56,723 nt of DNA. Source: Candidatus Eisenbacteria bacterium (lineage in GTDB: Bacteria; Desulfobacterota; Binatia; DP-6). A model generated the notes under the pieces. It saw only the letters and a list, made by a program, of their open reading frames with translations. It had not been told where the DNA came from and made no database searches. Numbering within the stretch: the first letter of the stretch is position 1; each line of letters starts with the position of its first letter. Where the stretch lies: positions 1-56,723 of the forward strand of contig DATJZY010000043.1 of NCBI GenBank assembly GCA_035577985.1, in the 5' to 3' direction. The translations under genes were made by a program, and so were the position numbers. This document shows, piece after piece, positions 20,545-38,980 of the stretch.

Positions 20545-21197
20545 CCACCGCCGTCGACGCGATCCTGGTCGGCGTGATCCTCACGAGCTTCGTGCTGCTC
20601 GGCTCGAGCCGCTTCGGGTCCTGCATCCGGGTCGTGGCCCTTCAGGGGGTGCTGCTCGGCGTGTTGACGCTCGCGGCGCGGCAGGACGAGGCGTCGCTTC
20701 GAACGACGCTGCTCGCCCTCGCGAGCACTGGGCTGAAGGGCATCGCGTTCCCGTGGTTGCTCGCGCGCGCGCTCCGCGATGCCGAGGTGCGCCGCGAGGT
20801 CGAGCCGCTCGTCGGCTATGGGCCATCGGTTCTGATGGGGCTCATGGGGCTCGTCGGCGCGCTCTGGCTCGCGAGCCGCCTTCGGCCGCCGGGTGCTTCG
20901 GTCTTGCCATCGCTCGTCGTGCCGGTGGCGCTCTTCACGATGTTCGCCGGCCTGTTTCTCATCGTCGGGCGCCGCCAGGCCCTGATGCAAGTGCTCGGCT
21001 ACCTCGTGATGGAGAACGGCATCTACGTCTTCGGCGTCGGAGTCGTGCAGGGAACGCCCGTGCTGGTCGAGCTCGGCGTGCTGCTCGACGTGTTCGTCGG
21101 CGTGTTCGTCATGGGCATCGCGATGTTCCACATCAGCCGCGAGTTCGATCATATCGATACGGAGCGTTTGCGGGCGCTGAAGGACTGGACGCCGTGA
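20541..21197 (+). CDS. hyfE: HyfE-like membrane subunit (NuoK/MrpC-related) of the Ehr complex
   Basis: 218 residues, GTG start overlapping the previous stop. Mostly membrane helices; the C-terminal half (VLGYLVMENGIYVFGVGVVQ, LGVLLDVFVGVFVMGIAMFH) carries the conserved Glu and Asp of HyfE and resembles NuoK/MrpC, while the N-terminal half is the HyfE-specific extension. It probably takes part in ion translocation at the arm next to the HyfC-like subunit. The stop overlaps the next GTG. Confidence 0.9.
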   Translation: MTTAVDAILVGVILTSFVLLGSSRFGSCIRVVALQGVLLGVLTLAARQDEASLRTTLLALASTGLKGIAFPWLLARALRDAEVRREVEPLVGYGPSVLMGLMGLVGALWLASRLRPPGASVLPSLVVPVALFTMFAGLFLIVGRRQALMQVLGYLVMENGIYVFGVGVVQGTPVLVELGVLLDVFVGVFVMGIAMFHISREFDHIDTERLRALKDWTP

Positions 21198-22660
21198 TCC
21201 TGGCGCTGCTGCTGTCGCCGCTGATTGCGGGCGCATTCGCCTACGTTCTGCGTCCCGACGGCCCGCGGCGAATGCTGCTGGTGGCGACGGCCGTCGGACA
21301 CGCGTTGCTCACGGGCGCGACCTGGGTGCACGATCCGGCACCCGCATGGGGAGGTTGGCTCGCGCTCGACGCCATGGGCCAGCTCATCCTCAGCATCACG
21401 AGTGGGCTCTTCCTCGCGTGCGCCGTCTACGCCGCGGGCTACCTCGGCCGCGAAGGTCATGGCACCCGCACCGACATCGGTGAGGGCTTCCTCTTCGACA
21501 ACGCGCCCGAGGCGACCTTCACGGCGTGCCTCCTCTTCTTCCTCGCGGCCATGACGCTCGTGACCGTGAGCCAGCGCTTCGGACTGCTCTGGGTCGCGAT
21601 CGAGGCGACCACGCTCGTGAGTGCGCCCTTGATCTATTTCCACCGCCACCATCGATCCCTCGAAGCGACCTGGAAGTACCTCCTCATCTGCTCGGTCGGA
21701 ATCGCGATCGCGCTGCTCGGGAACTTCTTCCTCGCGGTCGCGGCTGCGGGTGGTGGAACGCCGCTGCCGCTCGTCGTGCAGGATCTCGTGGGCGGCGCGT
21801 CGGGCATCGACAAGACCTGGCTCCAGGCGGCGATGATCCTTTTCCTCGTCGGCTACGGAACCAAGATGGGACTCGCGCCGCTCCACACCTGGTTGCCCGA
21901 CGCGCACAGCGAGGCGCCGTCGGTCGTGTCGGCGCTCCTCTCGGGGGCGCTCCTCAACTGCGCGTTCCTCGGCATACTCCGCGTGCAGCAGGTCTGCGCC
22001 GCGGCGGGCATCGCCGCCTTCGGCCAGGAGCTCCTCGTCGGGTTCGGGCTCCTGTCGATGGCCGTGGCGACCGTGTTCATCCCCGGCCAGAGCGACTACA
22101 AGCGTATGCTCGCCTACTCGAGCGTCGAGCACATGGGCGTGCTCGCGCTCGGGGTCGGTGTGGGCGGCATCGGTACCTTTGGCGCGCTTCTCCATGCCGT
22201 CGGCCATTCGGCGACCAAGGCGATGCTCTTTCTCACGGCGGGAAACATCCTCACGGCCTACCGGTCGAAGTCGATCCGCGAGGTGCGGGGCGTGCTGCGC
22301 GTCCTCCCCGTCACGGGTGGGCTCTGGATGCTCGGGCTCTTCGCAATCACCGGCTCGCCACCGTTCGGTCCCTTCTTGAGCGAGTTCACGATCCTGCGAG
22401 CGATGCTCGTTCAGGGCCACTCCGCGGTCGCATTGGGGTTCCTGGCGATGCTCGCCGTGATCTTCGTCGGCATGGCGGGCATCGTCCTCGAGATGGCGCA
22501 GGGCGAGCCGGGAATGGACACGGCCGACCGCCCGCGTCGCGAGCCGCTGTCGGCCGTGATGCCGGCGATCGCGCTCGCGGTCGTCGTCCTCGTGATCGGA
22601 GTGTACGTGCCGCCGCCGTTGCGGAGCGCGCTCGAACGAGCCGCGCACGCGTTGGATTGA
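21194..22660 (+). CDS. hyfF: HyfF/NuoN-like proton-translocating membrane subunit of the Ehr complex
   Basis: 488 residues, again of the NuoL/M/N antiporter family. LLWVAIEATTLVSAPLIYFH holds the helix-5 Glu, YGTKMGLAPLHTWLPDAHSE the channel Lys and His, and YKRMLAYSSVEHMGVLALGV the second Lys. It is the second antiporter-like unit, so the complex has two full pump-like subunits plus the HyfE-like piece. The GTG overlaps the preceding stop; the next gene starts 2 bases after its stop. Confidence 0.92.
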   Translation: MILALLLSPLIAGAFAYVLRPDGPRRMLLVATAVGHALLTGATWVHDPAPAWGGWLALDAMGQLILSITSGLFLACAVYAAGYLGREGHGTRTDIGEGFLFDNAPEATFTACLLFFLAAMTLVTVSQRFGLLWVAIEATTLVSAPLIYFHRHHRSLEATWKYLLICSVGIAIALLGNFFLAVAAAGGGTPLPLVVQDLVGGASGIDKTWLQAAMILFLVGYGTKMGLAPLHTWLPDAHSEAPSVVSALLSGALLNCAFLGILRVQQVCAAAGIAAFGQELLVGFGLLSMAVATVFIPGQSDYKRMLAYSSVEHMGVLALGVGVGGIGTFGALLHAVGHSATKAMLFLTAGNILTAYRSKSIREVRGVLRVLPVTGGLWMLGLFAITGSPPFGPFLSEFTILRAMLVQGHSAVALGFLAMLAVIFVGMAGIVLEMAQGEPGMDTADRPRREPLSAVMPAIALAVVVLVIGVYVPPPLRSALERAAHALD

Positions 22661-22662
22661 GC

Positions 22663-24135
22663 ATGGCAGACGGGACGTCACTCATCCTGCGCAACAGCGA
22701 GCCCGCGCGGGCGGGCGACGTGCCGGTGCTCGACGTCGAGGCCTTCACGACGGGCGTGCTCGATCGAGTGGACCGGGGCGGTCGCGTGGTGACGCTCTTC
22801 GGCCACGCGCTCGCCGGAGAGTCCGTGAGGCTCGTGGCGGTGGTCGCCGATGGCGAGGCGGGGACACTGGCGCTGACCGCCACCGACGTCCGCGGCGTCT
22901 ACCCCGCGCTCACGCCGCGCTGTCCGCAGGTCCACCGCTTCGAGTGCGAGGTCGCCGAGCAGCACGGCGTCCAACCGCTCGGGCATCCCTGGTTGAAACC
23001 GGTGCGCGGTGTCGAGCCGTCGACCGGCGCGGCGTTCTTCGCGGTCGGTGGTGACGAGGTGCACGAGGTGGCCGTCGGGCCGGTGCATGCCGGCGTGATC
23101 GAGCCCGGCCACTTCCGCTTCCAGTGCCATGGCGAGACCGTGATGCATCTCGAGATCGCGCTCGGCTACCAGCATCGTGGCGTCGAGCGCGCGCTCGTCG
23201 GGGGGCCGACGCCGCGCACCATCCACTACATGGAGACGCTCGCCGGCGACACGTCGGTCGGGCATGCGATGGCCCATTGCCAGGCGCTGGAGGCGCTTGC
23301 CGGATGTCGCGTGTCGGCACGCAGCGAGGTGCTGCGTGGCATCGCGCTCGAGATCGAGCGCCTCGCCAATCACACGGGTGACCTGGGCGCGCTCGCGGGC
23401 GACGTTGGCTACTTGCCCACGGCGTCGTACTGCGGCCGCATTCGCGGCGACTTCCTCAACATGAGCGCGCTCCTCTGCGGGAGTCGCTTCGGGCGTGGGA
23501 TGGTGCGTCCGGGCGGGGTCGGCTTCGACGTCGACGCCACCCGCGCAGCCGAGCTGGTGGCGCGGCTCGAGAAGGCCGTCGCCGACGTCGGTGAGGCGAC
23601 ACAGCTCCTCTGGGACGAGCCGTCCGTGCAGGCACGCTTCGAGGAGGTCGGGGCGCTCCTGCCCGAAACCGCCGAAGCCCTGGGCATCGTGGGCGTCGCG
23701 GCGCGCGCGTGCGGTATCTCGCGCGACGTCCGGCACGAGCTCCCCTCGGGCATCTTCCGCTTCGCCCACATTCCCGTGTCGACGTGGCACACGGGCGACG
23801 TCTTCGCGCGTGCCTACGTCCGTTGGCTCGAAATTCAACGCTCGGCCGCGTTCGTCCGGGAGCAGCTGACGGCGCTTCCCGACGGCCCGCTCCGCGCTCC
23901 GGTTGGTCGGCTCGCCGCCGACGCGCTCGTCGTGTCGCTGGTCGAAGGGTGGCGCGGCGAGATCTGTCACGTCATCCTCACCGACGCGGAGGGCCGCTTC
24001 GCGCGCTACAAGGTCGTCGACCCGTCGTTTCACAACTGGATGGGGCTCGCGATGGCGCTGCGCAACCAGCAGATCTCCGACTTCCCGCTCTGCAACAAGA
24101 GCTTCAACCTCTCGTACTGTGGCCACGATTTGTAG
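22663..24135 (+). CDS. Ehr large subunit: HyfG/NuoCD-like without NiFe ligands
   Basis: 490 residues: an N-terminal NuoC-like domain (about 1-130) fused to a NuoD/hydrogenase-large-subunit domain. In NiFe hydrogenases the first ligand motif is R-x-C-G-x-C; here the aligned segment METLAGDTSVGHA has Ala194 and Thr197 in place of both Cys. The C-terminal motif D-P-C-x-x-C is also absent: the protein ends FNLSYCGHDL with one Cys (486). It cannot hold a NiFe centre of the known kind. It is not a NuoD either, since the surrounding genes are HyfB/C/E/F type. This matches the Ehr (energy-converting hydrogenase-related) group, whose redox reaction is unknown. Confidence 0.88.
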   Translation: MADGTSLILRNSEPARAGDVPVLDVEAFTTGVLDRVDRGGRVVTLFGHALAGESVRLVAVVADGEAGTLALTATDVRGVYPALTPRCPQVHRFECEVAEQHGVQPLGHPWLKPVRGVEPSTGAAFFAVGGDEVHEVAVGPVHAGVIEPGHFRFQCHGETVMHLEIALGYQHRGVERALVGGPTPRTIHYMETLAGDTSVGHAMAHCQALEALAGCRVSARSEVLRGIALEIERLANHTGDLGALAGDVGYLPTASYCGRIRGDFLNMSALLCGSRFGRGMVRPGGVGFDVDATRAAELVARLEKAVADVGEATQLLWDEPSVQARFEEVGALLPETAEALGIVGVAARACGISRDVRHELPSGIFRFAHIPVSTWHTGDVFARAYVRWLEIQRSAAFVREQLTALPDGPLRAPVGRLAADALVVSLVEGWRGEICHVILTDAEGRFARYKVVDPSFHNWMGLAMALRNQQISDFPLCNKSFNLSYCGHDL

Positions 24136-24144
24136 AGGAGCCCG

Positions 24145-24927
24145 ATGCTGAAGGCACTTCGCGCGCGCGTGCACCAGGGACGGCGGACGATCTCGTATCC
24201 CGACGACGCGCCCGCGCTCCCGGACCGCTTTCGAGGGCTCCCGCGCCTGGACGCCGAACGATGCGGGCCCGACTGCGCGCGCTGCATCGACGCCTGCCCG
24301 ACCGGCGCGCTCGTGAAGCGCGACGGGCGGCTCGGCCTCGATCTCGGCCGGTGCCTCTTCTGCACCGATTGCGTGGAGGCATGTCCCGAGGGGGCGATCG
24401 CCTACGGAGGCGAGTACCGCATGGCGGCGAGGACGCGCGAGGAGCTCGTGCTCGACGGCCCCGCGCTCCCGCTCGTCGCGGCACTCGACGCGGAGACGCG
24501 CCGGCTCTTCGGCCGCTCGCTCAAGCTCCGGCAGGTGAGTGCCGGCGGCTGCAACGGCTGCGAGGCCGACGTGAACGTGCTCAACACCGTCGTCTTCGAT
24601 CTCGGGCGACTCGGCATTCAGTTCGTAGCATCCCCACGCCACGCTGACGGCCTGCTCATCACCGGCCCCGTTACCGAGAACATGCGGCTCGCGCTCCGGA
24701 AGACGTACGATGCGGTGCCGGGTCCGAAGATCGTGATCGCCGTCGGCGCATGTGCAATTTCGGGTGGTCCGTACGTCGACCATCCAGAGGTGCACAACGG
24801 CGCACACCGAGTCCTGCCCGTGGACCTCTACGTTCCTGGATGCCCACCGCACCCCTACACGATCCTTCATGGTCTGCTTGGCCTCCTGGGACGCATCGAC
24901 CAGCGCCCCGGTGGCCCTCGCACTTGA
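24145..24927 (+). CDS. Ehr small subunit: 2x[4Fe-4S] ferredoxin domain fused to HyfI/NuoB-like domain
   Basis: 260 residues. The N-terminal part is a bacterial-type ferredoxin: Cys40, 44, 47, 51 and Cys70, 73, 76, 80. The first set has C-x3-C at its start instead of C-x2-C. The C-terminal part is the small subunit with proximal-cluster ligands Cys136 and 139 (GGCNGCEADVN), Cys203 (GACAISGG) and Cys233 (PGCPPHP), all intact. HyfH-like and HyfI-like functions are thus joined in one chain. Electrons can run through three 4Fe-4S clusters towards the NiFe-less large subunit. A GAGGAG ribosome site precedes the ATG. Last gene of the operon. Confidence 0.88.
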   Translation: MLKALRARVHQGRRTISYPDDAPALPDRFRGLPRLDAERCGPDCARCIDACPTGALVKRDGRLGLDLGRCLFCTDCVEACPEGAIAYGGEYRMAARTREELVLDGPALPLVAALDAETRRLFGRSLKLRQVSAGGCNGCEADVNVLNTVVFDLGRLGIQFVASPRHADGLLITGPVTENMRLALRKTYDAVPGPKIVIAVGACAISGGPYVDHPEVHNGAHRVLPVDLYVPGCPPHPYTILHGLLGLLGRIDQRPGGPRT

Positions 24928-25432: not shown

Positions 25433-28400
25433 ATGACCTGCCCTCTCTGCCAGCACGAGAACCGCTCCGGCGCCAAGTTCTGCGAGGAATGCGCGGCGCC
25501 ATTGCCGCGCCCCTGTGCGAGCTGCGGTGCCCACCTACGCGCCGCCGCGAAGTTCTGTGACGAGTGCGGCACCGCGACCGGCGCGGCGCCGGTGCCCACG
25601 CCCGGCGCCAATGCCGACGGGACGCGCAAGGTGGTCACCGTCGTGTTCGCGGACCTCGCCGGCTCGACCGCCCTGCACGAACGGCTCGACGCCGAGTCGG
25701 CCCGCCTCTTCATGGAAGGCTACTACCGCGCGATGCGCGGCGCCGTGGAGCAGAACGGCGGCCGGGTGGCCAAGCTGCTCGGCGACGGTGTCATGGCGGT
25801 CTTCGGCCTTCCGCAGGTGGCCGAGGACGATGCCATTCGCGCCGTGCGCGCCGCCGTCGACATGCAGCGCGTGTTCCGCGCGCTCGCCGAACGGCACAGC
25901 AATCTCGTCGGCAAGGTCGGCCTGCGCGTCGCGGTCAACACCGGCGAAGTCGTCGCCAAGGACGAAACCGAGCTGATCGGCGACCCGGTCAACGTCGCGG
26001 CGCGCCTCCAGGACCAGGCGCGCGACGGCGACGTCGTGATCGGCGAATCCACGCGGCGCCTCGTCGCCACCCTCGTGACCCTGGAATCGCTCGGAAGCCT
26101 GATCCTCAAGGGCCGCGACGAACCCGTGCGCGCCTACCGCGTCGTGTCGCTGGAGAAGCCGGCGATCGCGACGACCGCGGCGTTCGTCGGCCGCGACGAC
26201 GAGGTCGGGCGGCTCGGCGCCGTGTACGACGCCGCGGTCGCGACTCCGGCTGCGCGGCTCGCCGTGCTGCTGGGCTCCCCCGGGCTCGGCAAGTCGCGCC
26301 TCATCGACGAGTTCGCGCGCCGCCACGCGGAGACGGCGAAGATCCTCGTCGCGCACTGCGATGCCGCCGGCGGCGCCACGTTCGCGCCGCTCGCCAAGGC
26401 CATCCGGGCGGTCCTCGGCCTCGACGACGGCGCCACCGGCGAGCCGGCCCGCGCCGCGATCGCCGCCGCCCTCCCGTCCACCACCGACGACGCCGAGCGA
26501 GCACGCGTTGCCGGGGGCGTGGCGGCGCTCCTCGGCGGGTCACCCACGTCGCCCGAGGAGACGTTCTTCGTCGTGCGGCGGTTCCTTTCGGGTCTCGCCG
26601 CCGCGAGCCCCGTGATCCTGGTGATCGACGACCTGCACTGGGCGGAGCCGCTCCTCCTCGACCTGGTGGAGCACCTGGTGCAGTGGGGCGCCGGCGTGCC
26701 GCTCTTCGTGCTGGTCGGCGCGCGGCCGGAGCTGCGCGATCTCCGTTCCACGCTCGCGACGCCCGGCGGCCTCGTCGCCGACGTGGTGACGCTCGGCGGT
26801 CTCGACGCCGGCGCGGCGATGCGGCTCGCGGCGAACGTGATCGGAGCCGTAGACCTGCCGTCGGCGGTCGCGGTCAAGGTGCTCGCCGCGAGCGAGGGCA
26901 ACCCGCTCTTCGTGGGCGAGCTGGTGCGCATGCTGGTGCAGGAAGGCGCGCTCACGAAGGAGGGCAACCGCTGGACGATCGGCGCCGGGCTGGCCGCGCT
27001 GGAGATGCCCCCCACCATCCACGCGCTGCTCGCCGCACGCATCGAGCGCTTGCGGCCCGAAGACCGGACCGTGCTCGAGCGCGCCGCGGTCGTCGGCCGC
27101 CACTTCTCGCGGAGCGCCGTCGCGGCGCTGCTGGGGCGCAACGGCAGCGAGCTCGACACGCGCCTCGAGTCGCTCCGCCGGAGCGAGCTCATCGAGCGCG
27201 ACACGGGCTGGCTCCTCGGCGAGCCAGCGTTGCGCTTCCATCATGTTCTGATCCGCGACGCGGCGTATCGGCGCCTGCTCAAGGGGACGCGCGCCGAGCT
27301 GCACGAGCGGCTCGCCGACTGGATCGAGGCGCGGGTCGGCGACGCGCCCGAGCACGACGAGACGATCGGCTGGCACCTGGAGCAGGCACACCAGCACCTC
27401 CGTGAGCTGGGCTCGCTCGACGAGCGCAGCCACCGTCTCGGCGAGCGGGCGTCGCAACGGCTGGCCGCCGCCGGCCGGCGGGCGCTCGCCCGCGACGATG
27501 TCCCGCTCGCGGCGAGCCTCCTCGGGCGCGCCATCGATCGGCTCGCGCCGGACGCTCCCGAGCGAGCCGACCTGGCGCTCGACTGGTGCGAGGCCCTCTT
27601 GTCCGCCAGCGACGTGGGCCCGGCCGGAGCTGCCATCGACGAGCTCGGCCGCGGCGCCGGCGACTCCGCCCGGCTGCGCGCCTGGCACACGTGCTTCTCG
27701 GGCCAGCTCACCGTGCTCACCGCGCCGGAGGCGCTGCAGGCGACCGCCGATCGCGTCGGCGCCGCGGCGCGGGATCTGGCGGCGGTCGGTGATGCCGCCG
27801 GCGAAGCGAAGGCGCACTTCGTCCATGCGCAGGCGCTCGCGCGCCTCGGGAAGGTCGGCGCCTGCGAGGCGGCGCTCGATCTGGCGCTCGCCGCCGCCCG
27901 TCGTGCGGGCGATCGGCGCCGCGCGAATGCGGTCCTGGCGGGGGCACCGCTCGCGGCGCTCTGGGGACCGAGCCCGGTGACGCGCGCGAGCGGCCGCTGC
28001 CTCGACGTGGTGCGCGTGCTGCGGATCACGCAGGGGGCGCCGGCGGTCGAGGCCGTGGCGCTGAGTTGTCAGGGCGTGCTCGAGGCGCTCCGCGGGCGTA
28101 CCGACGCGGCCCGGCGCATGATCGGGTCGGCGCGCTCGATGGTGGAGGAGCTCGGCATCGCGCACCGGCTCTTCGAGGCCGACGCGTTCGCCGGGCGGAT
28201 CGATCTCCTCGAGGGCGACGCGGCGGCCGCCGAGCGCTCGCTCCGTGTCGCATACGATGGACTGCGCGACCTCGGGCTCGGGATCGACGCGGCCCGCGCG
28301 GCGGCGTTGCTCGCGCGCGCGCTCCTCGCGCAAGGGCGGATCGCCGAAGCGGAGGCGCTCTCGCGCGAGAGCGAGGCGCTCGCCGGCGACGATCTCCAGG

Positions 28401-31400
28401 CCGCGATCGCCTGGCGCGGAGCGCGCGCCGAGGCGTTGGCGAAGCGCGGCGACCACGACGACGCCATCTCGCTGGCGCAGGCCGCCGTGACCATCGCCGC
28501 CGCGACCGACGCGCTCCTCGATCACGCCGACGCGCGCGTGGCGCTCGCGGCGGCGCTGCGCGCGGCCGGACGTGGCGCCGAGGCCGACGGCGAGGAGCGT
28601 CGGGCGATCGAGCTCTGGGTGGCGAAGGGCGCGACGGTGCTCGCCGAGCGCGTGCGGAAGGAGGGAGCGGAGGTACCGCCGCTTCCCGGGGAATCCAAGT
28701 CCCGCGTCGGGCCTGCGCCGGCAGCGCGCCGGGACGTGCGCTCGAACGCCGCGACCGCGTGGCAGGCCCGCTTCGATGCTGCCCTGGCGGAGCGCGATTT
28801 CGACGCGCTCCTGGCGCTCCTGAGCGAGGACTACCAGGAGACCGATCACCCGACCGGGTCCTGCTACGGACGCGCGGAGGCGTTGGGCTCGCTCCAGCGC
28901 CTGTTCCGCTCGCGCGATCCGGTCTACCGCGAGGAGCCGTTCGCGACGCTCGGCGACGCCTTGTGCCTGCGGCGAAGGCTGGTGCGGGCGAGCGGCGCAG
29001 CCGGCAGGCGCTACGACGTCGGCGCATACGAGAACGAGGCGATCTCGCTGGTGGAGGTCGACGATCGCGGCCTGGCGCGGCGTCAGGAGGTCTTTGCCGT
29101 CAATCAACTCGGCGACGCTGTCGAGCGCTTGTACGAGCGCCACGCCGAGCTGCTGCCCGACGGCCCGGCGCGCGACCGCACGGCGGCGACGGCGCGCGCG
29201 ATGGGTACGACGAGCCGTGCGGTGAGCGGTCTCGATCGCTGGGCGGCCGTGCTCGCCACCGACTTCGAGTCGATCGATCACCGGCGGCTCGGAACCTGGT
29301 CGGTCCGGGGCGCCGCCGCGTTCCTCGAACACCTCCGCGCCCTGCGGGAGGTCGCCAGCGAGATCGTGTTCCGGCACCTCGCGGTTCTGGCGGTCGAGCC
29401 GAACGCCATGCTCGTCGAGAACATGCACTCCGGCAACGAGCGCCTCGGCGGCGGCGCCTACGAGCGGCTCTTTCTCGTGTGCTTCGCCACCGACGTCGAG
29501 GGGCGGCTCGCGCGTGCGGAGTGGTTCGACGCCGATGACGGAGCCGAGGCGCTCGCGCGCTTCGATGCGCTGGTCGCCGGTGCGGTGCCGAAGCGATCCG
29601 CCCGCCTCGTGCGTGCGAATGCCGCCGTGCGCAACGCGGAGCACCTCTGCGCCGCAGTCGAGACGCGCGACGAGGCGGCCCTGCTCGCCACCCACGCCGA
29701 GCCGATTGAAGTGATCCACCACCCGACCGGCGCGACGTATGGAGCGCCCGAGCTGCTCGCCATGTTTCGCGGGCTCTGGCGGGCTCGGAACGCCAGGTTC
29801 GCGCAGGAACCCCTCGGGACGCTCGGCGACTCGCTCGCGCTCCTGCGCCGTTCGTATACCCACGACGGCGTCGACTCGAAGTTCGGCTCCGTCGGACCCG
29901 TCGAGGCCGACTACTTCGTGGTCTTCGAGGTGGACCAGCGCGGACAGATGAAGCGGAGCGAAGTCTTCGCCGACGACCGCCTCGGCGAAGCCGTCGTGCG
30001 CCTCTACGAACGCTACGCCGAGCTGCTGCCTCCCGGCCCGGCACGAACCCGCGCCGCCGGCACGGCCCGCGCGGTCGCGGCGTTCCATCGCTCCGGCTCC
30101 GATCGAGATGGCTTCCTGGCCGCGTTCGCGCCGGGGATCGTCGCCATCGATCACCGCACCGTCGGGTTCGGGGAGTTGCACGGCCGGGACGCTCTGGTCA
30201 TCGCGATACGCGCGTTCCACGACCTCTCGGACGACATCGGGATACGCTACGACGACGTGCTCGCGCTCTCGGAGCACGCGGCCCTCATCCGCGCGACCCA
30301 GTTCGGACGCGCCCGCGCGAGCGGCGGCACGTGGGAGCGCCCGATGTGCACGCTGCGCGTCCACGACGCCGAGGGCCTCGTCGTACGCTGGGAGATCTTC
30401 GAAGCCGAGCAAGAGGCCCAGGCGCTCGCACGCTACGACGCGCTCGCCGGGAGCGCCGACCAGGTGTCGTCGGTGTCGGAGCACCCGTTCGCCAACGCCG
30501 CGTCGCGCGCGTGGTTGGCCGTCATCGATGCCTGGGGACGGCGCGACGCCGATGGCTTCGCAGCGCTCCAGTCGCACCTGCTCCGCTATCGAGACCATCG
30601 GCGCCTGTTGCATCTCGATCTCGATCGCGAGCAGTTCCTCGACTTCACCCGCCCGACGCTCGACATGGCGGTGGGCGGCTCCGTCGAGCTGCTCGCGACG
30701 CGCGGCGAGCGACTCGCGCTCAAGCGCTTCACCATGGACATGGCCGAGGATGCGGTCGGCCCGAGCGCGATCGACTCGCTCCTCTTGATCGAGACGGACG
30801 AGCGCGGCGACATCGTCGCGTACGATCGATTCGACCCGGACGACGTCGACGCCGCCTGGGCCGAGCTCGGCGCGCGCTGGGTCGCGGGTGAGGCGGCGGC
30901 GCACGGGACCACGGCCGGTGCCCTTCGCTCCATGGGCGACGCGGTCGCGAGGCGCGACTGGGATGCCTACGCCGCGACCTTCGCCCCGGACGTCGGTTTC
31001 CACGATCACCGCCTGCTCGGCTGGGGGACGACGCTCGGCGACGCGGCGACGCTCGTGCGAGCGCAACAAGCACTGGTCGAGCTCGCTCCCGACGTCCGCT
31101 ACCGCCTCGATCACCTCCGCCTCTCGGGCCGCATCCATCTGTACCAGGGAGCGCAGGTGGGCACGCGTGACGGTGGCCCGTTCGAGTCGCCGTTCATCAG
31201 CGTCGGGGAGCACGACGAGGCGGGCCGGCTGGTGCACTGGGACATGTACGACGTCGACCAGCTCGACCAGGCCCGCGCGCGCTTCGAGGCTCTCGCGGCC
31301 GCGGATCCGCTGGCGGAGATCGTCAGTCCCAACGCGGCAGTCTCGATGCTGGAACGCTGGCAGGCGGCGTTCGACGCAGCCGTCGCGTCGGACGATTGGG

Positions 31401-32977
31401 ACGCCATGCGTGACGTCTGCACGCCGGGGATGATCTTCGACGACCGGCGCCGCCTGGCACTGCTCTCGGGCGACCGGGACCTGATGATCGCGTCCGCTCG
31501 CGAGCGGGTACGAAACGGTGGCCGAGTCGAAAACCGGCTCGTGGGAATGGCTGGGGATCGCGTCGCCGTCACGCGCGCGCTCTGGTCCGGCGGTCCCCCC
31601 GAGGGCCGCTGGGAGGTCGAATATCTCGGTGTCGTCGAGATCGACGAGGCGGGGAGGATCGTGGCCATGATCTTCTTCGATCTCGCCGACGCCCGCGCCG
31701 CGCAGCGCGAGGCGTGGGCGCGCTGGGCGGCGATCGATCCCGCCGCGGCGCCGTGGGTGGCGGTCATCGGGGCTGCCGTCGAAAGCTTCGACGCGCAGGA
31801 CTGGAAGCGTCTGAGGACGCTCTTCGCCGACGACGTCATCGTCGACGATCACCGCCGGACCGGCTTCGGCCGGATCGAAGGCGCCGACGCGTACCTTTCG
31901 ACCGTCGCGGTATTGTGGGATCTCGCGCCCGACCAGCGCGTGGAACTCGGCTGGTTCTGGCCGGCGGTCGAGCGCCATGGGGTGATCACCAGGGGCCGCC
32001 GCTTCGGCTCCCTTGCCGACGGCGGCGCCTTCGAGAGCGAGTATCTTTGGCTCAGCACCGCGACGGGCGGCCGGATCACGCGCCTCGACCTGTTCGAGGG
32101 CGAAGACCTCGATAGGGCAAAAGCCCGCCTGGAGGAGCTGCGGCCCGATCCCCTGCGCATCCCGCCGAACGCGGTGACGCGCACCTGGGACCGTTGGTGG
32201 GGTGCCGTGGCGGCCAACGATCGTGACGCCATTCGCGGGCTGTACGCCCCCACCTATCGGTTCGATGATCGGCGGCGCTTGTTCCGCATGTCCGCGGATC
32301 TCGGCCAGACGTTGACCGGGGACCACCTCATCGTGGACGACGGGTGGCGGCCGGTGCGCACGCTGCTCGCGACCGCGGGCGATCGCCTCGCGCTGCAGCA
32401 CATTCTGTGGACGACGGGCGAAGCCGGCGCCACCTCGGAGATCGAAACGCTGATGGTGAGCGAGGTCGATCGCGACGGTCGCTTCGTCCACGGCGCCGCA
32501 TTCGATCCCGACGACCGTGCCGCCGCGAGCGCGGAGCTCTTCGAGCGTTACGTCGCGAGCGGCGACGACGGGGTCCCGTCGAACGTCATCGCGATCACAC
32601 GCGCGTGGAACGCTCACGACCTCGAGCGGCTGCGCGCGCTGCTCCCGGCCGATTTCTACCTCGACGACCGCCGCCGCACCGGCGTCGGCCGCCTCGAGGG
32701 CGTCGACGCCTACATCGACTCGCTCGCCGCGGTGTGGGACCTGAGCCGCGACCTCAGGATCGAGATGCTCCGCCTCATCGGCACGGCGCCGCACGGCATC
32801 CTCTGGGTCAACCGCTGGTCCGGCACCAACGCCGAGGGCGGCAACTTCGACGCCGTCTACGTCTGCATCGGGCTCCTCCGGGGCGACGAGTCCGCCGGTA
32901 TGGAGATCTTCGAGCTCGACGACTTCGAGCTGGCCCGCGCGCGGTTCGCGGAGCTCTCCGCCGGTCCGAAATTCTGA
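25433..32977 (+). CDS. Giant zinc-ribbon/class III cyclase/AAA ATPase/TPR protein with ten NTF2-like repeats
   Basis: 2514 residues in one frame. Residues 1-48: two zinc knuckles (Cys3, 6, 17, 20 and 28, 31, 42, 45). Residues 64-240: class III adenylate/guanylate cyclase, apparently competent: metal Asp74 (FADLAGST) and Asp118 (LLGDGV), base-contact Lys114 and Asp184, and Asn187/Arg191 (VNVAARL). Residues 250-650: AAA-type ATPase with Walker A GSPGLGKS (281-288) and Walker B VILVIDDLHWAE (Asp399/400), as in the cyclase-ATPase and LuxR-type sensors. Residues 660-1090: TPR-like helices. Residues 1105-2514: ten tandem SnoaL/NTF2-like domains. The first two-thirds of this plan is common in actinobacterial and deltaproteobacterial predicted ATPases; the repeat array is exceptional. 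Likely a cytosolic ligand sensor making a cyclic nucleotide; effector unknown. It is a single gene flanked by debris. Confidence 0.9.
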   Translation: MTCPLCQHENRSGAKFCEECAAPLPRPCASCGAHLRAAAKFCDECGTATGAAPVPTPGANADGTRKVVTVVFADLAGSTALHERLDAESARLFMEGYYRAMRGAVEQNGGRVAKLLGDGVMAVFGLPQVAEDDAIRAVRAAVDMQRVFRALAERHSNLVGKVGLRVAVNTGEVVAKDETELIGDPVNVAARLQDQARDGDVVIGESTRRLVATLVTLESLGSLILKGRDEPVRAYRVVSLEKPAIATTAAFVGRDDEVGRLGAVYDAAVATPAARLAVLLGSPGLGKSRLIDEFARRHAETAKILVAHCDAAGGATFAPLAKAIRAVLGLDDGATGEPARAAIAAALPSTTDDAERARVAGGVAALLGGSPTSPEETFFVVRRFLSGLAAASPVILVIDDLHWAEPLLLDLVEHLVQWGAGVPLFVLVGARPELRDLRSTLATPGGLVADVVTLGGLDAGAAMRLAANVIGAVDLPSAVAVKVLAASEGNPLFVGELVRMLVQEGALTKEGNRWTIGAGLAALEMPPTIHALLAARIERLRPEDRTVLERAAVVGRHFSRSAVAALLGRNGSELDTRLESLRRSELIERDTGWLLGEPALRFHHVLIRDAAYRRLLKGTRAELHERLADWIEARVGDAPEHDETIGWHLEQAHQHLRELGSLDERSHRLGERASQRLAAAGRRALARDDVPLAASLLGRAIDRLAPDAPERADLALDWCEALLSASDVGPAGAAIDELGRGAGDSARLRAWHTCFSGQLTVLTAPEALQATADRVGAAARDLAAVGDAAGEAKAHFVHAQALARLGKVGACEAALDLALAAARRAGDRRRANAVLAGAPLAALWGPSPVTRASGRCLDVVRVLRITQGAPAVEAVALSCQGVLEALRGRTDAARRMIGSARSMVEELGIAHRLFEADAFAGRIDLLEGDAAAAERSLRVAYDGLRDLGLGIDAARAAALLARALLAQGRIAEAEALSRESEALAGDDLQAAIAWRGARAEALAKRGDHDDAISLAQAAVTIAAATDALLDHADARVALAAALRAAGRGAEADGEERRAIELWVAKGATVLAERVRKEGAEVPPLPGESKSRVGPAPAARRDVRSNAATAWQARFDAALAERDFDALLALLSEDYQETDHPTGSCYGRAEALGSLQRLFRSRDPVYREEPFATLGDALCLRRRLVRASGAAGRRYDVGAYENEAISLVEVDDRGLARRQEVFAVNQLGDAVERLYERHAELLPDGPARDRTAATARAMGTTSRAVSGLDRWAAVLATDFESIDHRRLGTWSVRGAAAFLEHLRALREVASEIVFRHLAVLAVEPNAMLVENMHSGNERLGGGAYERLFLVCFATDVEGRLARAEWFDADDGAEALARFDALVAGAVPKRSARLVRANAAVRNAEHLCAAVETRDEAALLATHAEPIEVIHHPTGATYGAPELLAMFRGLWRARNARFAQEPLGTLGDSLALLRRSYTHDGVDSKFGSVGPVEADYFVVFEVDQRGQMKRSEVFADDRLGEAVVRLYERYAELLPPGPARTRAAGTARAVAAFHRSGSDRDGFLAAFAPGIVAIDHRTVGFGELHGRDALVIAIRAFHDLSDDIGIRYDDVLALSEHAALIRATQFGRARASGGTWERPMCTLRVHDAEGLVVRWEIFEAEQEAQALARYDALAGSADQVSSVSEHPFANAASRAWLAVIDAWGRRDADGFAALQSHLLRYRDHRRLLHLDLDREQFLDFTRPTLDMAVGGSVELLATRGERLALKRFTMDMAEDAVGPSAIDSLLLIETDERGDIVAYDRFDPDDVDAAWAELGARWVAGEAAAHGTTAGALRSMGDAVARRDWDAYAATFAPDVGFHDHRLLGWGTTLGDAATLVRAQQALVELAPDVRYRLDHLRLSGRIHLYQGAQVGTRDGGPFESPFISVGEHDEAGRLVHWDMYDVDQLDQARARFEALAAADPLAEIVSPNAAVSMLERWQAAFDAAVASDDWDAMRDVCTPGMIFDDRRRLALLSGDRDLMIASARERVRNGGRVENRLVGMAGDRVAVTRALWSGGPPEGRWEVEYLGVVEIDEAGRIVAMIFFDLADARAAQREAWARWAAIDPAAAPWVAVIGAAVESFDAQDWKRLRTLFADDVIVDDHRRTGFGRIEGADAYLSTVAVLWDLAPDQRVELGWFWPAVERHGVITRGRRFGSLADGGAFESEYLWLSTATGGRITRLDLFEGEDLDRAKARLEELRPDPLRIPPNAVTRTWDRWWGAVAANDRDAIRGLYAPTYRFDDRRRLFRMSADLGQTLTGDHLIVDDGWRPVRTLLATAGDRLALQHILWTTGEAGATSEIETLMVSEVDRDGRFVHGAAFDPDDRAAASAELFERYVASGDDGVPSNVIAITRAWNAHDLERLRALLPADFYLDDRRRTGVGRLEGVDAYIDSLAAVWDLSRDLRIEMLRLIGTAPHGILWVNRWSGTNAEGGNFDAVYVCIGLLRGDESAGMEIFELDDFELARARFAELSAGPKF
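28745..32974 (+). repeat. Ten tandem NTF2/SnoaL-like domain repeats in five dyads
   Basis: Repeat starts fall at residues of about 1105, 1255, 1396, 1546, 1688, 1825, 1967, 2107, 2246 and 2384, so each dyad spans 270-292 residues. Odd units open with NAAxxxW-like helices and carry HPTG or DDRRRL; even units carry (D)HRxxGxGxxxG. Nearly all end with a strand such as VVFEVDQRGQMKRSEVF, then a helix ARFEAL. Divergence between units is high, indicating old duplications of a two-domain block. Confidence 0.85.
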
Positions 32978-33464: not shown

Positions 33465-35012
33465 TCACGCCAGCACCGCCTCGATCAGGTGCGGGCCGGG
33501 TTCGGCGTACGCGCGCTCCAATGCGCGCACCAGCCCGTCCGCGTCGTTCGCCCGGATTCCGGGGACGCCCATTCCGGCGGCGAGCTGCACCCAGTCGATG
33601 TCCGGGCCGGTCAATTCCGTCAGGCTGCGCGCCGCTCGCCCGGTGCGGGACACCCCTGCGCGCTGCAGCTCGATCTGCAGGATGCGGTAGGCGCGGTTCG
33701 CACAGACAATGGTCGTCACGTCGAGCGACTCGCGGGCCTGCGTCCACAGCGCCTGCATCGTATACAGTCCGCTGCCATCGGCCTGGAACGCGACGACGCG
33801 TCGGTCGGGGCACGCGATCGCCGCGCCAGTCGCACACGGCAACCCCTGGCCGATGGCGCCGCCGGTCAACGTGAGCCAGCTGTGCGGCGCCGCGGATGCG
33901 AGGGCCGGGTACAGAAACACCGACGCCGTCGCGCCTTCGTCGACCAGGATCGCGTGCTCCGGCATCGTCGCCGCCACAGCCGCGGCGAGCGCAGCACCAT
34001 CGAGCTTGCCGGACGGTCTCGGCGGCAGCTCGAATGGAGCCAGCGATCCGCGATCGACCGGCGCACCGAGCCCGGTCGCGACGGACGCAAGCGCAGCCAC
34101 GACGTCCTCTTCTGCGGTCGCGAGACACACCACCTCGACGTCCTCGGGCAGCATCCGGCTTCGCGCGCCGGGCCACCCGAACAAGGCGACCGGCGGCGGC
34201 GCGCCCACGACCACGACGCACGTCGTTCGGCCGAGCGTGTGGGCCACCTGCTCCGGAAAGTACGGGAAGCGCTCGGCGGATGGCGTGCCGGCGCCGCGCT
34301 CCATGCGTCCCGGGAACGTTTCGACGAACAGCCGGCAACCGCTCGCCGCGACGATCCGCGCCGCGTGCGAGAGCGGGACAGCCGCGCACGCCGGGCCGCC
34401 GACGTAGAGGGCCGTCGACGCTCCTCGGCGAAGGCGCTCTACGGCGGCCGCGGCACGCAACCCATCCGGTGGCGGCGGCGCAGTCGACTTCGACACGCGG
34501 GCCGGTGCGCCGGCGGCTGCGCTCTGCAGGTCCGCCGGCACGATGAGGGTGGCGACGTTCCCAGGCGGAGCCGTCGCCGCCGCGAGCGCGTCGGCGCAGT
34601 CGGCGGCCACGGCGCCCGCGCTCCTGCTGGTGCGGACCCATGCCGACATCGGCGCTGCCAGCGCTTCGATGTCGCATTCCAGGGCGGAATCGGCGCCGAG
34701 GTGCCAGGTCGCATGCTCCCCCACCACGTTCAGCACCGGCGAGCGGGCGCGGCGCGCGTTGTGTAGATTGGCGAGCCCGTTGGCGAGGCCCGGGCCGAGG
34801 TGGAGCAACGTCATCGCCGGTCGTCCTGCCATGCGGGCGAAGCCGTCCGCGGCGCCGGTGCAGACGCCCTCGAAGAGACCGAGCACGGCGCGGATACCCG
34901 GGACGGCGTCGAGGGCAGCCACCAGCGGCATCTCGCTCGTTCCTGGATTCGCGAAGCACGTGTCGACGCCGAAGGCGCGTGCCGTGACGACCAGGCTCTC
35001 CGCGGCGTTCAT
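33465..35012 (-). CDS. Thiamine-diphosphate enzyme, acetolactate-synthase/benzoylformate-decarboxylase-like
   Basis: 515 residues with the usual three domains. The Pyr domain carries the cofactor-activating Glu48 (LFEGVCTGAADGFAR). The C-terminal ThDP/Mg motif is ADGSGLYTMQALWTQARESL ending in CANRAY (G-D-G-S...N-N variant with ADGS and ANR). Length is on the short side, as in acetolactate-synthase-like or MdlC-like proteins, and no regulatory subunit is adjacent. It could decarboxylate or ligate a 2-oxoacid made in aromatic or side-chain breakdown. The start overlaps the TetR stop (ATGA). Last gene of the operon. Confidence 0.88.
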   Translation of the reverse strand: MNAAESLVVTARAFGVDTCFANPGTSEMPLVAALDAVPGIRAVLGLFEGVCTGAADGFARMAGRPAMTLLHLGPGLANGLANLHNARRARSPVLNVVGEHATWHLGADSALECDIEALAAPMSAWVRTSRSAGAVAADCADALAAATAPPGNVATLIVPADLQSAAAGAPARVSKSTAPPPPDGLRAAAAVERLRRGASTALYVGGPACAAVPLSHAARIVAASGCRLFVETFPGRMERGAGTPSAERFPYFPEQVAHTLGRTTCVVVVGAPPPVALFGWPGARSRMLPEDVEVVCLATAEEDVVAALASVATGLGAPVDRGSLAPFELPPRPSGKLDGAALAAAVAATMPEHAILVDEGATASVFLYPALASAAPHSWLTLTGGAIGQGLPCATGAAIACPDRRVVAFQADGSGLYTMQALWTQARESLDVTTIVCANRAYRILQIELQRAGVSRTGRAARSLTELTGPDIDWVQLAAGMGVPGIRANDADGLVRALERAYAEPGPHLIEAVLA

Positions 35013-35671
35013 CGCCTGCCTCCACGATCGGTGGTGTTCATCTCGCGCGCCAGGGCCGTGAGCGCGCGACGGAGCAGGCCGAACGAACGGCGAACGTCGG
35101 CCTGCCCGGGATCGATGTGCTGGGCGACGAACGCGCCGTCGGCGACCACGAGGACGAGTCGCGCGAACTCGTCAGCGATCCCGTGCACGTCTCGCAGGTT
35201 CAACGGCTCGAGCATGACGACCATCATCTTCCGGATGCGCTCGAGCGCGAGGTCCCTCACGCGTCGGATGACGGTGAGCGACGCGGCATCGACGTCGCGC
35301 CGCTCCAGTGCAATGAGCAGCAAGAGCCGAAGGAACTCCGGGTGCGACTCCAGCGACGCGTCCACGGCCTCGAAGAGCGCTGCGATCCGCTGGGCTGGGT
35401 CCTTCGGGAGGCCATCGATGCGCGGAAGCGCATCGAACCAGCGCCGAGCGCCTTCTTCGACCACCGCCGCGAGCAGTGTTTCCTTGCTGTCGAAGTGCCA
35501 GTAGATCGAGCCCGACGGCAACCCCGAGCGCTGGCTCACCGCCGCGATGCTGGTGCCCGCGAACCCGCGCTCGGCCATTAGCGTTGCGGCGGCATCGACG
35601 ATCCTCCGGCGCGACTCGGCCCCGAGCTCTTGCCGTCGGGACAGTTTCCGCACGGCGTTTGCCTCACTCAC
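35009..35671 (-). CDS. TetR-family transcriptional regulator
   Basis: 220 residues from GTG at 35671, which overlaps the previous stop by 8 bases; the open frame extends to 35764, but that part is antisense-like. The HTH is residues 17-60 (AESRRRIVDAAATLMAERGF, SIAAVSQRSGLPSGSIYWHF), and the C-terminal helices form the ligand pocket. Sitting inside the catabolic operon, it probably represses it, and the long palindrome at 38981-39014 in front of the operon is a plausible binding site. Confidence 0.88.
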   Translation of the reverse strand: MSEANAVRKLSRRQELGAESRRRIVDAAATLMAERGFAGTSIAAVSQRSGLPSGSIYWHFDSKETLLAAVVEEGARRWFDALPRIDGLPKDPAQRIAALFEAVDASLESHPEFLRLLLLIALERRDVDAASLTVIRRVRDLALERIRKMMVVMLEPLNLRDVHGIADEFARLVLVVADGAFVAQHIDPGQADVRRSFGLLRRALTALAREMNTTDRGGRR

Positions 35672-35972
35672 GTCGATACCCTCCGACGCGGTCGCGGAGC
35701 GTCGGCAGGAGCGAGAGCGCGTTGTCACGCTCGATTGCGCGGCGGGCGGCTTCGTCGAAAGCATCGTACCGTGCCAGCCCTGTGACGCTCAGATGGGTGA
35801 CCGGCTCGGGTGCAAACGGGACGTCGGACCCGAAGAGGATCTGTGTCGGCGGAACAAGCTCGCAGAGCGAGCGCAGCGCATGCGGGTTGGCCGAGAGCGC
35901 CGGCGCCGGCACCGACAGGTAGTCCGGCGGCAGGATGTGATGATGGACGCCGATGCGGTATGGCGCGGTCAC
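35664..35972 (-). pseudogene. Amidohydrolase (COG2159 type) with internal in-frame deletion
   Basis: 102 codons. The first part, VTAPYRIGVHHHILPPDYL, is the N-terminal strand with the HxH metal motif of amidohydrolases such as ACMSD-like decarboxylases. It passes straight into the C-terminus: LSANPHALRSLCELVPPTQI, LFGSDVPFAPEPVTHLSVTG and ERDNALSLLP, where GSD bears the last metal Asp. About 200 barrel residues, including the other metal His ligands, are missing, so no activity is expected. The GTG start overlaps the preceding stop and its own stop overlaps the TetR start, so operon coupling has been kept. Confidence 0.78.
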
Positions 35973-36883
35973 TGATTCTTCTCCGCGCAGAGCCCGCGGA
36001 GGAACGCGCGCGTGCGCTCGAATTCCCCGGGCGTCGCGCACAGAGCATTGACACGCAGGTCGGTCGCGCCGGCGATCTCGAACGCCGCAATGCGCCTTCG
36101 CACTTCGTCTTCCGTCCCCACCGCGAGAAGCCCCTCGGGGCCGGCGAGACCTTCGCGTGCAAGGGTGGCGCGATACGCGGGGAGAACGCCGTAGAGCTTG
36201 AGCCGCTCTGCGGCCACGGCGCGTGCGCGGTCGGGAGCGTCGGTCACGCATACCGGAATTCCGGCGAGGATTCTCGGCGATGAGCGACCGGCACGAGCCG
36301 CTGCTTCCCCGAGGCGCGGCGCGACGTAGTCGGTCACGGTGCGCGGTCCCACCATCCAGAGCGTCACCCCGTCGGCTTCCTGGCCCGCCAGGTCGAGCAT
36401 CTTCTCGCCGAGTGCGGCCACGAGGATGGGGCATGGTGGCGCTTCGATCGAGAGGCGGCCGCGGACGACGACCTCCTTGCCTTCGAGCGACACGGCGTCG
36501 CCAGCGAGCAGGCCCTTCAAGGCGAGCAACGTCTCCCTCACGCGCGTGAAGGCTCGCGCGTAGCGTTCGCCGAACATGCCCTCGACGAGGACCTGATGAG
36601 AGGCGCCGATGCCGAGGACGAGGCGACCGCCCGTCGCCGCTTGCGCCGTGAGCGCCTGCGCCGCGAGCGTGATCGGGTGGCGTCCGTAGACGGGCACGAT
36701 GGACGTGCCGAGCTCGATGCCCGGCGCGTCGGCCGCCACGGCCGCGAGCGCCGTCAGCGCATCGGGGCCGCTGATCTGCGAGAGCCAGAAGCTCGCAAAG
36801 CCGTCCGCGGCGGCGCGCCGCGCTTCGTCACGGATCGACTCCAGGCGCGTGTGATGGCCGCCGCCGTTCCAGCCGATCCGCAC
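35969..36883 (-). CDS. LLM-class F420-dependent oxidoreductase
   Basis: 304 residues, luciferase-like TIM barrel. ASFWLSQISGPDALTALAAV, GIELGTSIVPVYGRHPITLA and GRLVLGIGASHQVLVEGMFG are the LLM-class strands; the size and pattern fit the MSMEG_4879-type F420 group better than FMN luciferases. It would carry out a two-electron reduction or oxidation with F420. GTG at 36883 is chosen as start: it lies 2 bases after the dioxygenase stop, and the sequence then begins VRIGWNGGG like its family. Confidence 0.87.
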   Translation of the reverse strand: MRIGWNGGGHHTRLESIRDEARRAAADGFASFWLSQISGPDALTALAAVAADAPGIELGTSIVPVYGRHPITLAAQALTAQAATGGRLVLGIGASHQVLVEGMFGERYARAFTRVRETLLALKGLLAGDAVSLEGKEVVVRGRLSIEAPPCPILVAALGEKMLDLAGQEADGVTLWMVGPRTVTDYVAPRLGEAAARAGRSSPRILAGIPVCVTDAPDRARAVAAERLKLYGVLPAYRATLAREGLAGPEGLLAVGTEDEVRRRIAAFEIAGATDLRVNALCATPGEFERTRAFLRGLCAEKNQ

Positions 36884-36885
36884 GA

Positions 36886-37785
36886 TCAGGCTCCGCGCGA
36901 CGGCAGCGTGGCGGGCATGTGATGGCCCCAGACGCTCATCCGATCGTAGCGATCCACCTTCCACGTCGCGTCGTCGATCTTGCGACCGCCCCAGCCGAAC
37001 TCGACGTCGAAGCCGGACGGCGTCCGCGCGTAGAACGAGAACATGCGATCGTTCGGGTGCACGCCGAGCGTGTTCGCGATCTCGATGCCGGCCTTGAGAC
37101 AACGGTCGTACGCGTGGCCGACGTCGTCCATGGCACCCACCTCGAGCATGAAGTGATGCACCCGCTTCGGCATCGGCGCAGCGGCGAACGCCACCGTATG
37201 GTGCCGCGAATTCGCGTGGAGGAACGTGATGAGCAGCGAGAACCCGGGCGCCATCTCGACCTCGATCCGATCGGAGAGCCGCATGCCGAGGAGCTCGCAG
37301 TAGAACCGCTCGGTCGCCTGCGGATCCATGGCGGCGAACACCACGTGGCCGAGGCCCTCGTCACCGGTGACGAACCCGGAGGGGACGAGCGAGGACCGGA
37401 AGGGATCTGGCGCCCGCTCGGGCCCGTGGAACAGCTCGATCGGCACGCCGTTCGGATCCTCGACGCGCAGCACGCGCTTCACGCGGCGTGCGCGCGCGAC
37501 GTCGTCGCCCGGGTCCTTCGCCGGGAATCCGGCCTGGTTCAGCGTTTCGGACAAGCGGCGCAGCGTCGCCTCGTCGTCAACCTCGAACCCGGCGTACGCG
37601 AGATCGTCGGCAGAGCCCGGATGGACGACGATGCGCTGCGCCTGGTCGTCGATCCGGAAGGCGACGCTGCCGTCCGATCGTCGGTCGGACACGACGAGGC
37701 CCAGTGCGTCGACCGCGAACCGCTCCCAGGCGGCGACGTCGCCGACCTCGAAGCCGAGGTATCCGAGGCGTGAGATTGCCTCCAT
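36886..37785 (-). CDS. Extradiol ring-cleavage dioxygenase (BphC/HsaC-like)
   Basis: 299 residues, two-domain VOC fold. Iron ligands His147 (GLGHVVFA), His211 (VHHFMLEV) and Glu262 (FDVEFGWGG) are in place, so it should cleave a catechol next to the hydroxyl pair (meta cleavage). Closest in kind are biphenyl-2,3-diol dioxygenase and the steroid enzyme HsaC. It lies directly after the HsaA-like monooxygenase gene (18 bases), the natural order: ring hydroxylation then cleavage. No hydrolase (BphD/HsaD) gene follows, so the next step must be encoded elsewhere. Confidence 0.92.
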   Translation of the reverse strand: MEAISRLGYLGFEVGDVAAWERFAVDALGLVVSDRRSDGSVAFRIDDQAQRIVVHPGSADDLAYAGFEVDDEATLRRLSETLNQAGFPAKDPGDDVARARRVKRVLRVEDPNGVPIELFHGPERAPDPFRSSLVPSGFVTGDEGLGHVVFAAMDPQATERFYCELLGMRLSDRIEVEMAPGFSLLITFLHANSRHHTVAFAAAPMPKRVHHFMLEVGAMDDVGHAYDRCLKAGIEIANTLGVHPNDRMFSFYARTPSGFDVEFGWGGRKIDDATWKVDRYDRMSVWGHHMPATLPSRGA

Positions 37786-37803
37786 CGATCGTCTCCTTCG
37801 TCC

Positions 37804-38973: not shown

Positions 38974-38980
38974 TTTTTCC

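Follow-up and report, generated by a model that had tools for sequence, protein, structure and literature searches.

A probable STAND-type cyclase carrying ten NTF2-like domains in tandem dyads belongs to a large protein family

Known STAND receptors use sensors of the TPR, WD40 or LRR type. In those that use a TPR sensor, such as MalT and PH0952, an N-terminal effector is followed by an NTPase with Walker A, Walker B and GxP motifs and by a TPR-type solenoid (PMC6468293). The AfsR-type SARP-NOD-TPR regulators form another class suited for comparison (PMC10936776), and in ECF41-type sigma factors a C-terminal SnoaL-like domain controls the activity of the regulator (PMC8999054). Here we analyze a gene from a Candidatus Eisenbacteria bacterium (class Binatia in the GTDB lineage) that lies at 25433..32977 on the + strand of contig DATJZY010000043.1, assembly GCA_035577985.1; the whole 56,723-nucleotide stretch that was analyzed is referred to below as the window. 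The gene codes for a protein of 2,514 amino acids in which zinc ribbons, a class III cyclase, a STAND-type ATPase and a TPR region are followed by five A/B dyads of NTF2-like domains. With a rough probability of 55%, we read it as a STAND-type receptor whose sensor is formed by the five dyads, such that small, probably hydrophobic molecules would likely switch on the cyclase.

The open reading frame (ORF) is intact, with zero internal stops, and it has the domain layout described in an original prediction made from the DNA letters alone. All of the features given below are on the + strand. Two zinc ribbons (residues 3-46; 25439..25570) match Pfam DZR at 41.2 bits (cut-off 27.3) and hold eight cysteines at 3/6, 17/20, 28/31 and 42/45; the prediction had called them zinc knuckles. 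The class III nucleotidyl cyclase (residues 67-230; 25631..26122) matches Guanylate_cyc at 63.4 bits (cut-off 21.9), and a residue census found all six catalytic residues at the places predicted: D74 and D118 for the metal, K114 and D184 as the substrate pair, and N187 and R191 for the transition state. The STAND-type NTPase module extends from residue 251 to about 640 (26183..27352), its C-terminal limit being our own placement. It includes an AAA_16 match (residues 251-418, 72.2 bits, cut-off 32.6), the Walker A motif GSPGLGKS (281-288) and Walker B motif ILVIDD (395-400) of the anticipated ATPase, and a GxP-type GNP (489-491) within SEGNPLF; its predicted fold is nearest to 6mfv. The TPR-type region (residues about 641-1095; 27353..28717) is supported by its conservation and by helical hairpins in the core model, as expected for the TPR-like helices noted earlier. 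Within it, a conservation census over homologues picked out a near-invariant block beginning with AALWGPSPVTRASGRCLDVVRVLRIT (residues 841-877; 27953..28063).

Past residue 1100, Pfam reports DUF4440 at 1112-1183 and SnoaL_2 at 141.8 bits (cut-off 27), the latter in eight stretches with E <= 1. A profile built from the protein's own segments and then iterated on homologues resolves ten domains of 130-139 residues each across residues 1104-2512. They form dyad 1 (A1 1104-1240 and B1 1246-1384; 28742..29584), dyad 2 (A2 1395-1531 and B2 1537-1675; 29615..30457), dyad 3 (A3 1687-1819 and B3 1823-1958; 30491..31306), dyad 4 (A4 1966-2101 and B4 2102-2240; 31328..32152) and dyad 5 (A5 2245-2376 and B5 2383-2512; 32165..32968), and profiles for the two classes, trained without this protein, give the order ABABABABAB. 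The count of ten and the strict pairing were thus as predicted; the proposed repeat length of about 140 residues is revised to 130-139, and SnoaL_2 by itself finds eight of the ten. A chance or artefactual origin of the repeats was discarded, there being 0 matches in 200 shuffles of the repeat region and homologues in several data sources.

The repeats belong to the SnoaL/NTF2 group by both profile score and predicted fold. An AlphaFold2 model of dyads 4 and 5 (552 residues; mean predicted local distance difference test score, pLDDT, 93.4; predicted template modeling score, pTM, 0.80) shows the expected cone fold in all four domains. Their nearest solved folds include ketosteroid isomerases (KSI), steroid-bound Rv0760c, designed steroid binders and the MonBI/Lsd19 epoxide hydrolases, in a survey of structural neighbors drawn partly from the VIA list, where absence of a family does not amount to exclusion. 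The NTF2 fold is also the scaffold used by protein designers for steroid binders. The repeats are predicted to be cup-shaped domains, and they likely bind small molecules.

The window protein is not a lone oddity: the array is real, and it recurs with a variable number of dyads in a large family. A search with the repeat region scored 328 proteins and listed 120, and a later one for shorter proteins scored 530 and listed 120; the searches overlap, with 117 of the second 120 being new. Carriers, where named in the source records, are Candidatus Binatia, Myxococcota or Deltaproteobacteria. Domains were classed with A and B profiles trained on half of the even-count proteins and scored on the remaining ones. 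Among the 98 listed homologues that hold the N-terminal part, arrays range from 8 to 22 domains, the longest being eleven pairs, and the count is even in 84, of which 83 read exactly (AB)n. A and B alternate at 1,897 of 1,912 domain neighbors in 128 proteins. This set adds to the 120 listed another eight proteins, taken from the window and from fetched loci; three or more of the eight, being further copies from the window's genome, are counted twice. In the second set, alternation holds at 631 of 643 neighbors (117 proteins). The core is present in 80 of these proteins, and 61 of the 77 that were counted have an even number within a range of 1 to 10 domains; the other three have a long tail or no array, and some proteins of this set are labeled partial by the source.

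Within the family, domains are gained and lost as dyads. For example, P0001, which is closest to the window protein (array 79% identical), matches dyads 1-5 in order and has an extra dyad at its end, while P0117 lacks the last dyad. Recent duplications of whole dyads are present, with up to 86% identity, and 49 of the 78 within-protein entries above 60% are between neighbors. For 9% of 688 dyads (87 proteins) the nearest relative lies within the same protein, against a random expectation of 1.2%. Concerted evolution of the repeats was considered and found unsupported, dyad identity being 0.353 within and 0.346 between proteins. Identity per repeat is uneven between P0016 and the window protein (0.48 beside 0.68-0.78) and between L067 and L092 (0.5 beside 0.8-0.9), which looks as though dyads had been exchanged like cassettes. 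No stand-alone dyad family was recognized among 83 matches to dyad 4, a search of limited sensitivity in which the majority of matches lie on contigs shorter than 10 kb and short proteins on long contigs were not checked singly. A SAM domain (PF00536/PF07647) replaces the zinc ribbons in P0063, P0093 and P0232 as a third kind of N-terminal module, and the array genes at L054, L166 and L163 (genomes G018, G032 (C31) and G373) are split across frames, as broken copies or assembly errors.

Several copies may occur in one genome. Besides the gene at 25433..32977, the source genome has three further array genes: one on contig C70 (3,983 amino acids, 20 domains), one that apparently starts on C70 and runs onto C55, the two contig ends having 141 bases in common (3,403 amino acids and 18 domains seen on C55), and one on C134 (3,067 amino acids, 14 domains). 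A second genome has 19 and 13 domains on two contigs that likewise have 141 bases of end sequence in common; these may represent a single gene. At E <= 1e-60, the core was found in 13 of 148 genomes of the same class, belonging to 10 of 72 genera. A phylum-wide draw of 297 genomes, poor in members of the class, returned it only from the window's own genome.

The part made up of the ATPase and the TPR region resembles the switch core of STAND proteins. Mean identity over the 98 listed homologues falls from 75% for the TPR region and 73% for the ATPase part to 68% for the cyclase and 48% for the first repeat. The TPR region is the most conserved large part of the protein, and the pattern is the reverse of that expected from a mere tail. 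SEGNPLF has a mean identity of 1.0 and GSPGLGK of 0.99 in the same set, and ASGRCLD, within the block at 841-877, is found in 178 of 180 core proteins. The six cyclase residues read DQDDNR in 93 and DKDDNR in 73 of these 180, so that 166 together have the full set with K or Q at 114. A Foldseek search with the core model (50 sequences; pLDDT 80.6) placed 6mfv, a STAND protein whose sensor is of the TPR type, first (E 5.5e-10) and 8bob, an entry of the maltose system (MalT), fifteenth. Two features of STAND membership are present, namely an NTPase with Walker A/B and GxP motifs and an N-terminal effector, which is the cyclase or, in both of the two mycobacterial members scanned, HTH-BTAD. The block at 841-877 overlaps a low-pLDDT, mostly non-helical stretch of the model (594-622, equal to residues 840-868), and could be a contact that keeps the switch closed.

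When named genomes were scanned with the TPR alignment, 100 relatives were found; the best 80 loci (L058-L137) comprise 75 from Mycobacteriaceae and five from metagenome-assembled genomes labeled Deltaproteobacteria. A helix-turn-helix (HTH)-BTAD-like motif stands at the N-terminus in 70 of the 75 mycobacterial loci, and our own profiles found arrays in most of them. Two mycobacterial proteins compared with Pfam start with Trans_reg_C and BTAD, followed by a weak cyclase (35-37 bits) and the ATPase, with TPR and SnoaL_2 also matched in one. The cyclase carries D118E and D184R in 73 of 73 aligned proteins (of 75). Because an HTH-BTAD (SARP) module is in front and the cyclase is changed at two catalytic positions, the output of these relatives appears to have been swapped. 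Most of their arrays read A(AB)n, with odd counts in 51 of 65 complete arrays and alternation at 769 of 854 neighbors. In four other mycobacterial members the front is zinc-ribbon-like, the catalytic set is complete and the array has 10 or 12 domains. Three further loci have an HTH-BTAD-like start, the longest protein reaching 4,927 amino acids and 27 domains. Genomes G438, G490 and G635 have one match to each TPR type apiece. A survey across the mycobacterial family found the core in 13 of 251 genomes, possibly an underestimate given the few candidates scored per genome.

To locate the putative pockets, cavity columns were placed by sequence alignment to KSI. In the Binatia set, class A cavity columns have a mean entropy of 3.14 bits compared with 2.22 elsewhere (p 1e-5). 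At column 35, which corresponds to the general base Asp40 of KSI, 95% of 688 B domains and 72% of A domains have Asp. On the other hand, the columns aligned by the same weak mapping with Tyr16 and Asp103, the oxyanion-hole residues of KSI, are variable (A11 and A99; B11 and B101), with no dominant Tyr or Asp. For mycobacteria, the divergence of orthologue-like repeats (144 A and 151 B pairs) was expressed per column relative to that of repeats within one array. The ratio is 0.143 for six A strand columns and 0.307 for matched columns (p 2e-5), and 0.209 as against 0.331 for five B strand columns (p 0.048), including B column 103, which was added from its strand position. Over all usable columns, the mean ratios are 0.191 and 0.319 for A (15 of 17 columns, p 1.2e-5), and 0.236 and 0.337 for B (10 of 11, p 0.028); the three mapped columns dropped from this fuller test were too invariant. 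The dN/dS of the cavity set, partly chosen by alternation, is 0.18 (A) and 0.13 (B) compared with 0.23 and 0.20 overall, and is not relaxed; out-facing columns are similar at 0.20 and 0.14. Several cavity columns are often polar, unlike a packed core. With a low ratio of orthologue to array divergence and a low dN/dS, the mycobacterial pockets would seem to be kept, each in its own way, as if every repeat held its own pocket. The proposed multi-ligand sensing is based on such evolutionary patterns.

The receptor reading suggests the following sequence of events. At rest, the ATPase would be bound to ADP and kept closed by the TPR region and the array. Ligands entering the array pockets would release this contact, allowing ADP to be exchanged for ATP and the protein to oligomerize as MalT and PH0952 do. 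Class III cyclase domains are active only as dimers, and oligomerization would pair them for production of cAMP or another cyclic nucleotide. In the mycobacterial HTH-BTAD relatives, whose cyclase is changed, this switch would control transcription. The dyads would differ in the ligands to which they respond, or would distinguish variants within a single ligand class. A broader formulation, to which we give somewhat less than even odds, is that the family is a bacterial counterpart of modular immune-type receptors that recognizes small molecules, with a STAND switch joined to a growable library of private NTF2 pockets in which A/B dyads are gained, lost and swapped, and with a cyclic-nucleotide or transcription readout.

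A number of results weigh against the receptor reading. The superposition of the core on 6mfv is poor (TM 0.26/0.31; root-mean-square deviation, rmsd, 16 over 843 columns) and the core model has a pTM of 0.52 with low-confidence stretches, so the motifs and the 6mfv match together are support and not proof. Odd domain counts occur in 14 of the 98 listed homologues (11 with a single A-A slip, one with a B-B slip and two ending in A) and in 16 of the 77 proteins counted in the second set. The mapping to KSI is weak, at 14.7 bits for A and 4.5 and 1.4 bits for B, and was made to a single KSI sequence rather than to coordinates. Class B, for which only the mapped part could be compared, shows no significant entropy excess (2.51 versus 2.32, p 0.19). 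The orthologue test fails in the Binatia set, where distances are larger (p 0.93 for A and B), and Binatia cavity columns change fastest, even when close dyads are compared (0.53 and 0.51 versus 0.35 for the rest), so that constraint may be relaxed there. Finally, no conserved neighbor gene that would name the signal was found in the Binatia-class or mycobacterial scans. At the class array loci, 100 of 110 neighbors from 19 stretches, some of which are two sides of one gene, gave 99 Pfam families at E <= 1e-8, the commonest occurring in four; at the mycobacterial loci, 102 of 208 neighbors gave 55 families, led by PE in seven and P450 in five.

The dyads might instead be covalent NTF2 dimers that serve as a scaffold or oligomerization surface, with the STAND-cyclase triggered by partner proteins. 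The NTF2-like hub of CaMKII is a precedent for such a role, STAND sensors built from repeats often bind proteins, and the alternation of conserved and variable columns on the sheet strands (B80, B96, B102, B115, B117) fits a conserved outer face and domain contact. A hub of this kind predicts a variable surface over a stable core, however, whereas the KSI-mapped cavity columns are the more variable ones in class A, the mycobacterial cavity columns are kept per repeat, and array length is very free among the listed proteins; we regard it as unlikely. We are more doubtful still of an enzyme array, in which each domain would be a working isomerase, hydrolase or cyclase of the SnoaL, KSI or limonene epoxide hydrolase (LEH) type and the whole a multi-site enzyme of catabolism or biosynthesis with a regulatory head. 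Enzymes are indeed numerous among the top structural neighbors, the tandem-NTF2 polyether epoxide hydrolases being examples; the general-base Asp of KSI is retained, with H/R-R after it, and the gene lies near those for an HsaA-type monooxygenase and a BphC-type dioxygenase. Yet Tyr16 and Asp103 of KSI map to variable columns, and the second conserved acid expected from an alignment with MonBI was not seen by eye. Moreover, the steroid/aromatic catabolic families of the window are absent from the 100 neighbors scanned at other array loci, and the mycobacterial members place the array on a predicted transcription-factor module.

The STAND-type core plus a cyclase, the patchy distribution among genomes of the class and the presence of several paralogues in one genome would also suit an anti-phage receptor, in the form of a STAND/NLR-like defense protein whose cyclase output is Pycsar-like and whose sensor array has diversified. 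The defense searches make this highly improbable: PADLOC gives only PycC-type matches of 26-47 bits over the cyclase domain, 0 of the 100 class neighbors match the Pycsar effector model, and beyond PycC-like cyclases only four defense models appear among them, each in one or two members. Dyads 1-2 were also unmatched in 50,697 phage and 72,556 plasmid records.

In the window, the array gene is next to a set of genes on the opposite strand (33465-39168, -) that encode a thiamine pyrophosphate (TPP) enzyme (PRK07586, above cut-off), a TetR regulator, an amidohydrolase-like ORF, a BphC/HsaC-type extradiol dioxygenase (347.5 bits, just below the cut-off of 366) and an HsaA-type monooxygenase (461.7 bits, above the cut-off of 450). 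By their matches these are assigned to steroid or aromatic ring catabolism; with no conserved neighbor across the family, their position beside the array gene is only a side observation. Upstream, on the strand of the array gene, are Complex I / hydrogenase-4-like genes (20753-24927, +), in which the ORF at 24145-24927 joins, in a single frame, a ferredoxin part resembling NuoI to a part resembling NuoB. Further away, the gene at 44519-45844 (-) encodes a DACNV sensor domain with a weak, sub-cut-off match to a DisA-type diadenylate cyclase (DAC) domain at its end, and is perhaps a sensor-bearing diadenylate cyclase. Elsewhere in the class, locus L160 encodes a 1,120-amino acid zinc-ribbon protein (15332-18691, -) on the strand of the nearby array gene, with no match to the TPR profile of the array family. 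Guanylate_cyc and AAA_16 were each found in four of the 100 scanned class neighbors. A nine-base pattern search of the window was uninformative.

This is a large, real family that is undescribed in the literature searched, in which a STAND-type cyclase or transcription factor is combined with an array of NTF2 dyads; the parts are ordinary and the whole combination is unusual. In agreement with the claim of novelty in the original prediction, no account of a STAND or cyclase protein bearing an NTF2/SnoaL array was seen among the papers listed by searches of an open-access library, most subscription journals being outside its scope. If the receptor reading is true, recognition by pockets arrayed in many NTF2 cups, and not by a flat repeat surface, would be a new principle of sensing, and with as many as 27 domains in its array a single protein could report many hydrophobic molecules. 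The family would also be a natural and evolvable source of small-molecule pockets coupled to the making of a cyclic nucleotide or to transcription. Its two outputs and differing dyad numbers, spread over several lineages, open the pocket-array idea to direct testing.

Set against known systems, the dyads come closest to Lsd19 and MonBI-MonBII, which likewise have two NTF2-like domains in one chain and are both the best Foldseek matches and the only PDB profile matches at E <= 0.01. These proteins have one pair only, superpose poorly over two domains (rmsd 12-18), and differ by the second catalytic acid that we did not see conserved in the dyads. The single-domain KSI-type comparison, with KSI itself and Rv0760c, differs in that the Tyr16/Asp103 equivalents are not kept and the window repeats are in tandem. 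With ECF41 factors the family has in common a SnoaL-like domain fused to a regulator; there the domain is single, the effector is another one and an ATPase switch is lacking. A cyclase followed by an AAA_16 ATPase is shared with the TOMM kinase-cyclases (TIGR03903; 221 bits over residues 53-655), at a score far under the cut-off of 705.75 that places the protein outside that family. The mycobacterial cyclase-ATPase-HTH group has the same order of cyclase and AAA_16 ATPase, and we know of no NTF2 array in either. The mycobacterial relatives share with AfsR-type regulators the HTH-BTAD ahead of the ATPase-TPR part, and add to it a changed cyclase between BTAD and ATPase and, behind the TPR part, NTF2 arrays that reach 27 domains. 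The STAND ATPases with a TPR sensor, such as MalT and PH0952, share with the window protein the order of effector, NTPase and TPR-type solenoid and include the best solved-structure match of its predicted core; in the window protein, the effector is a class III cyclase, and ten NTF2-like domains past the TPR region are a candidate for a second, longer sensor.

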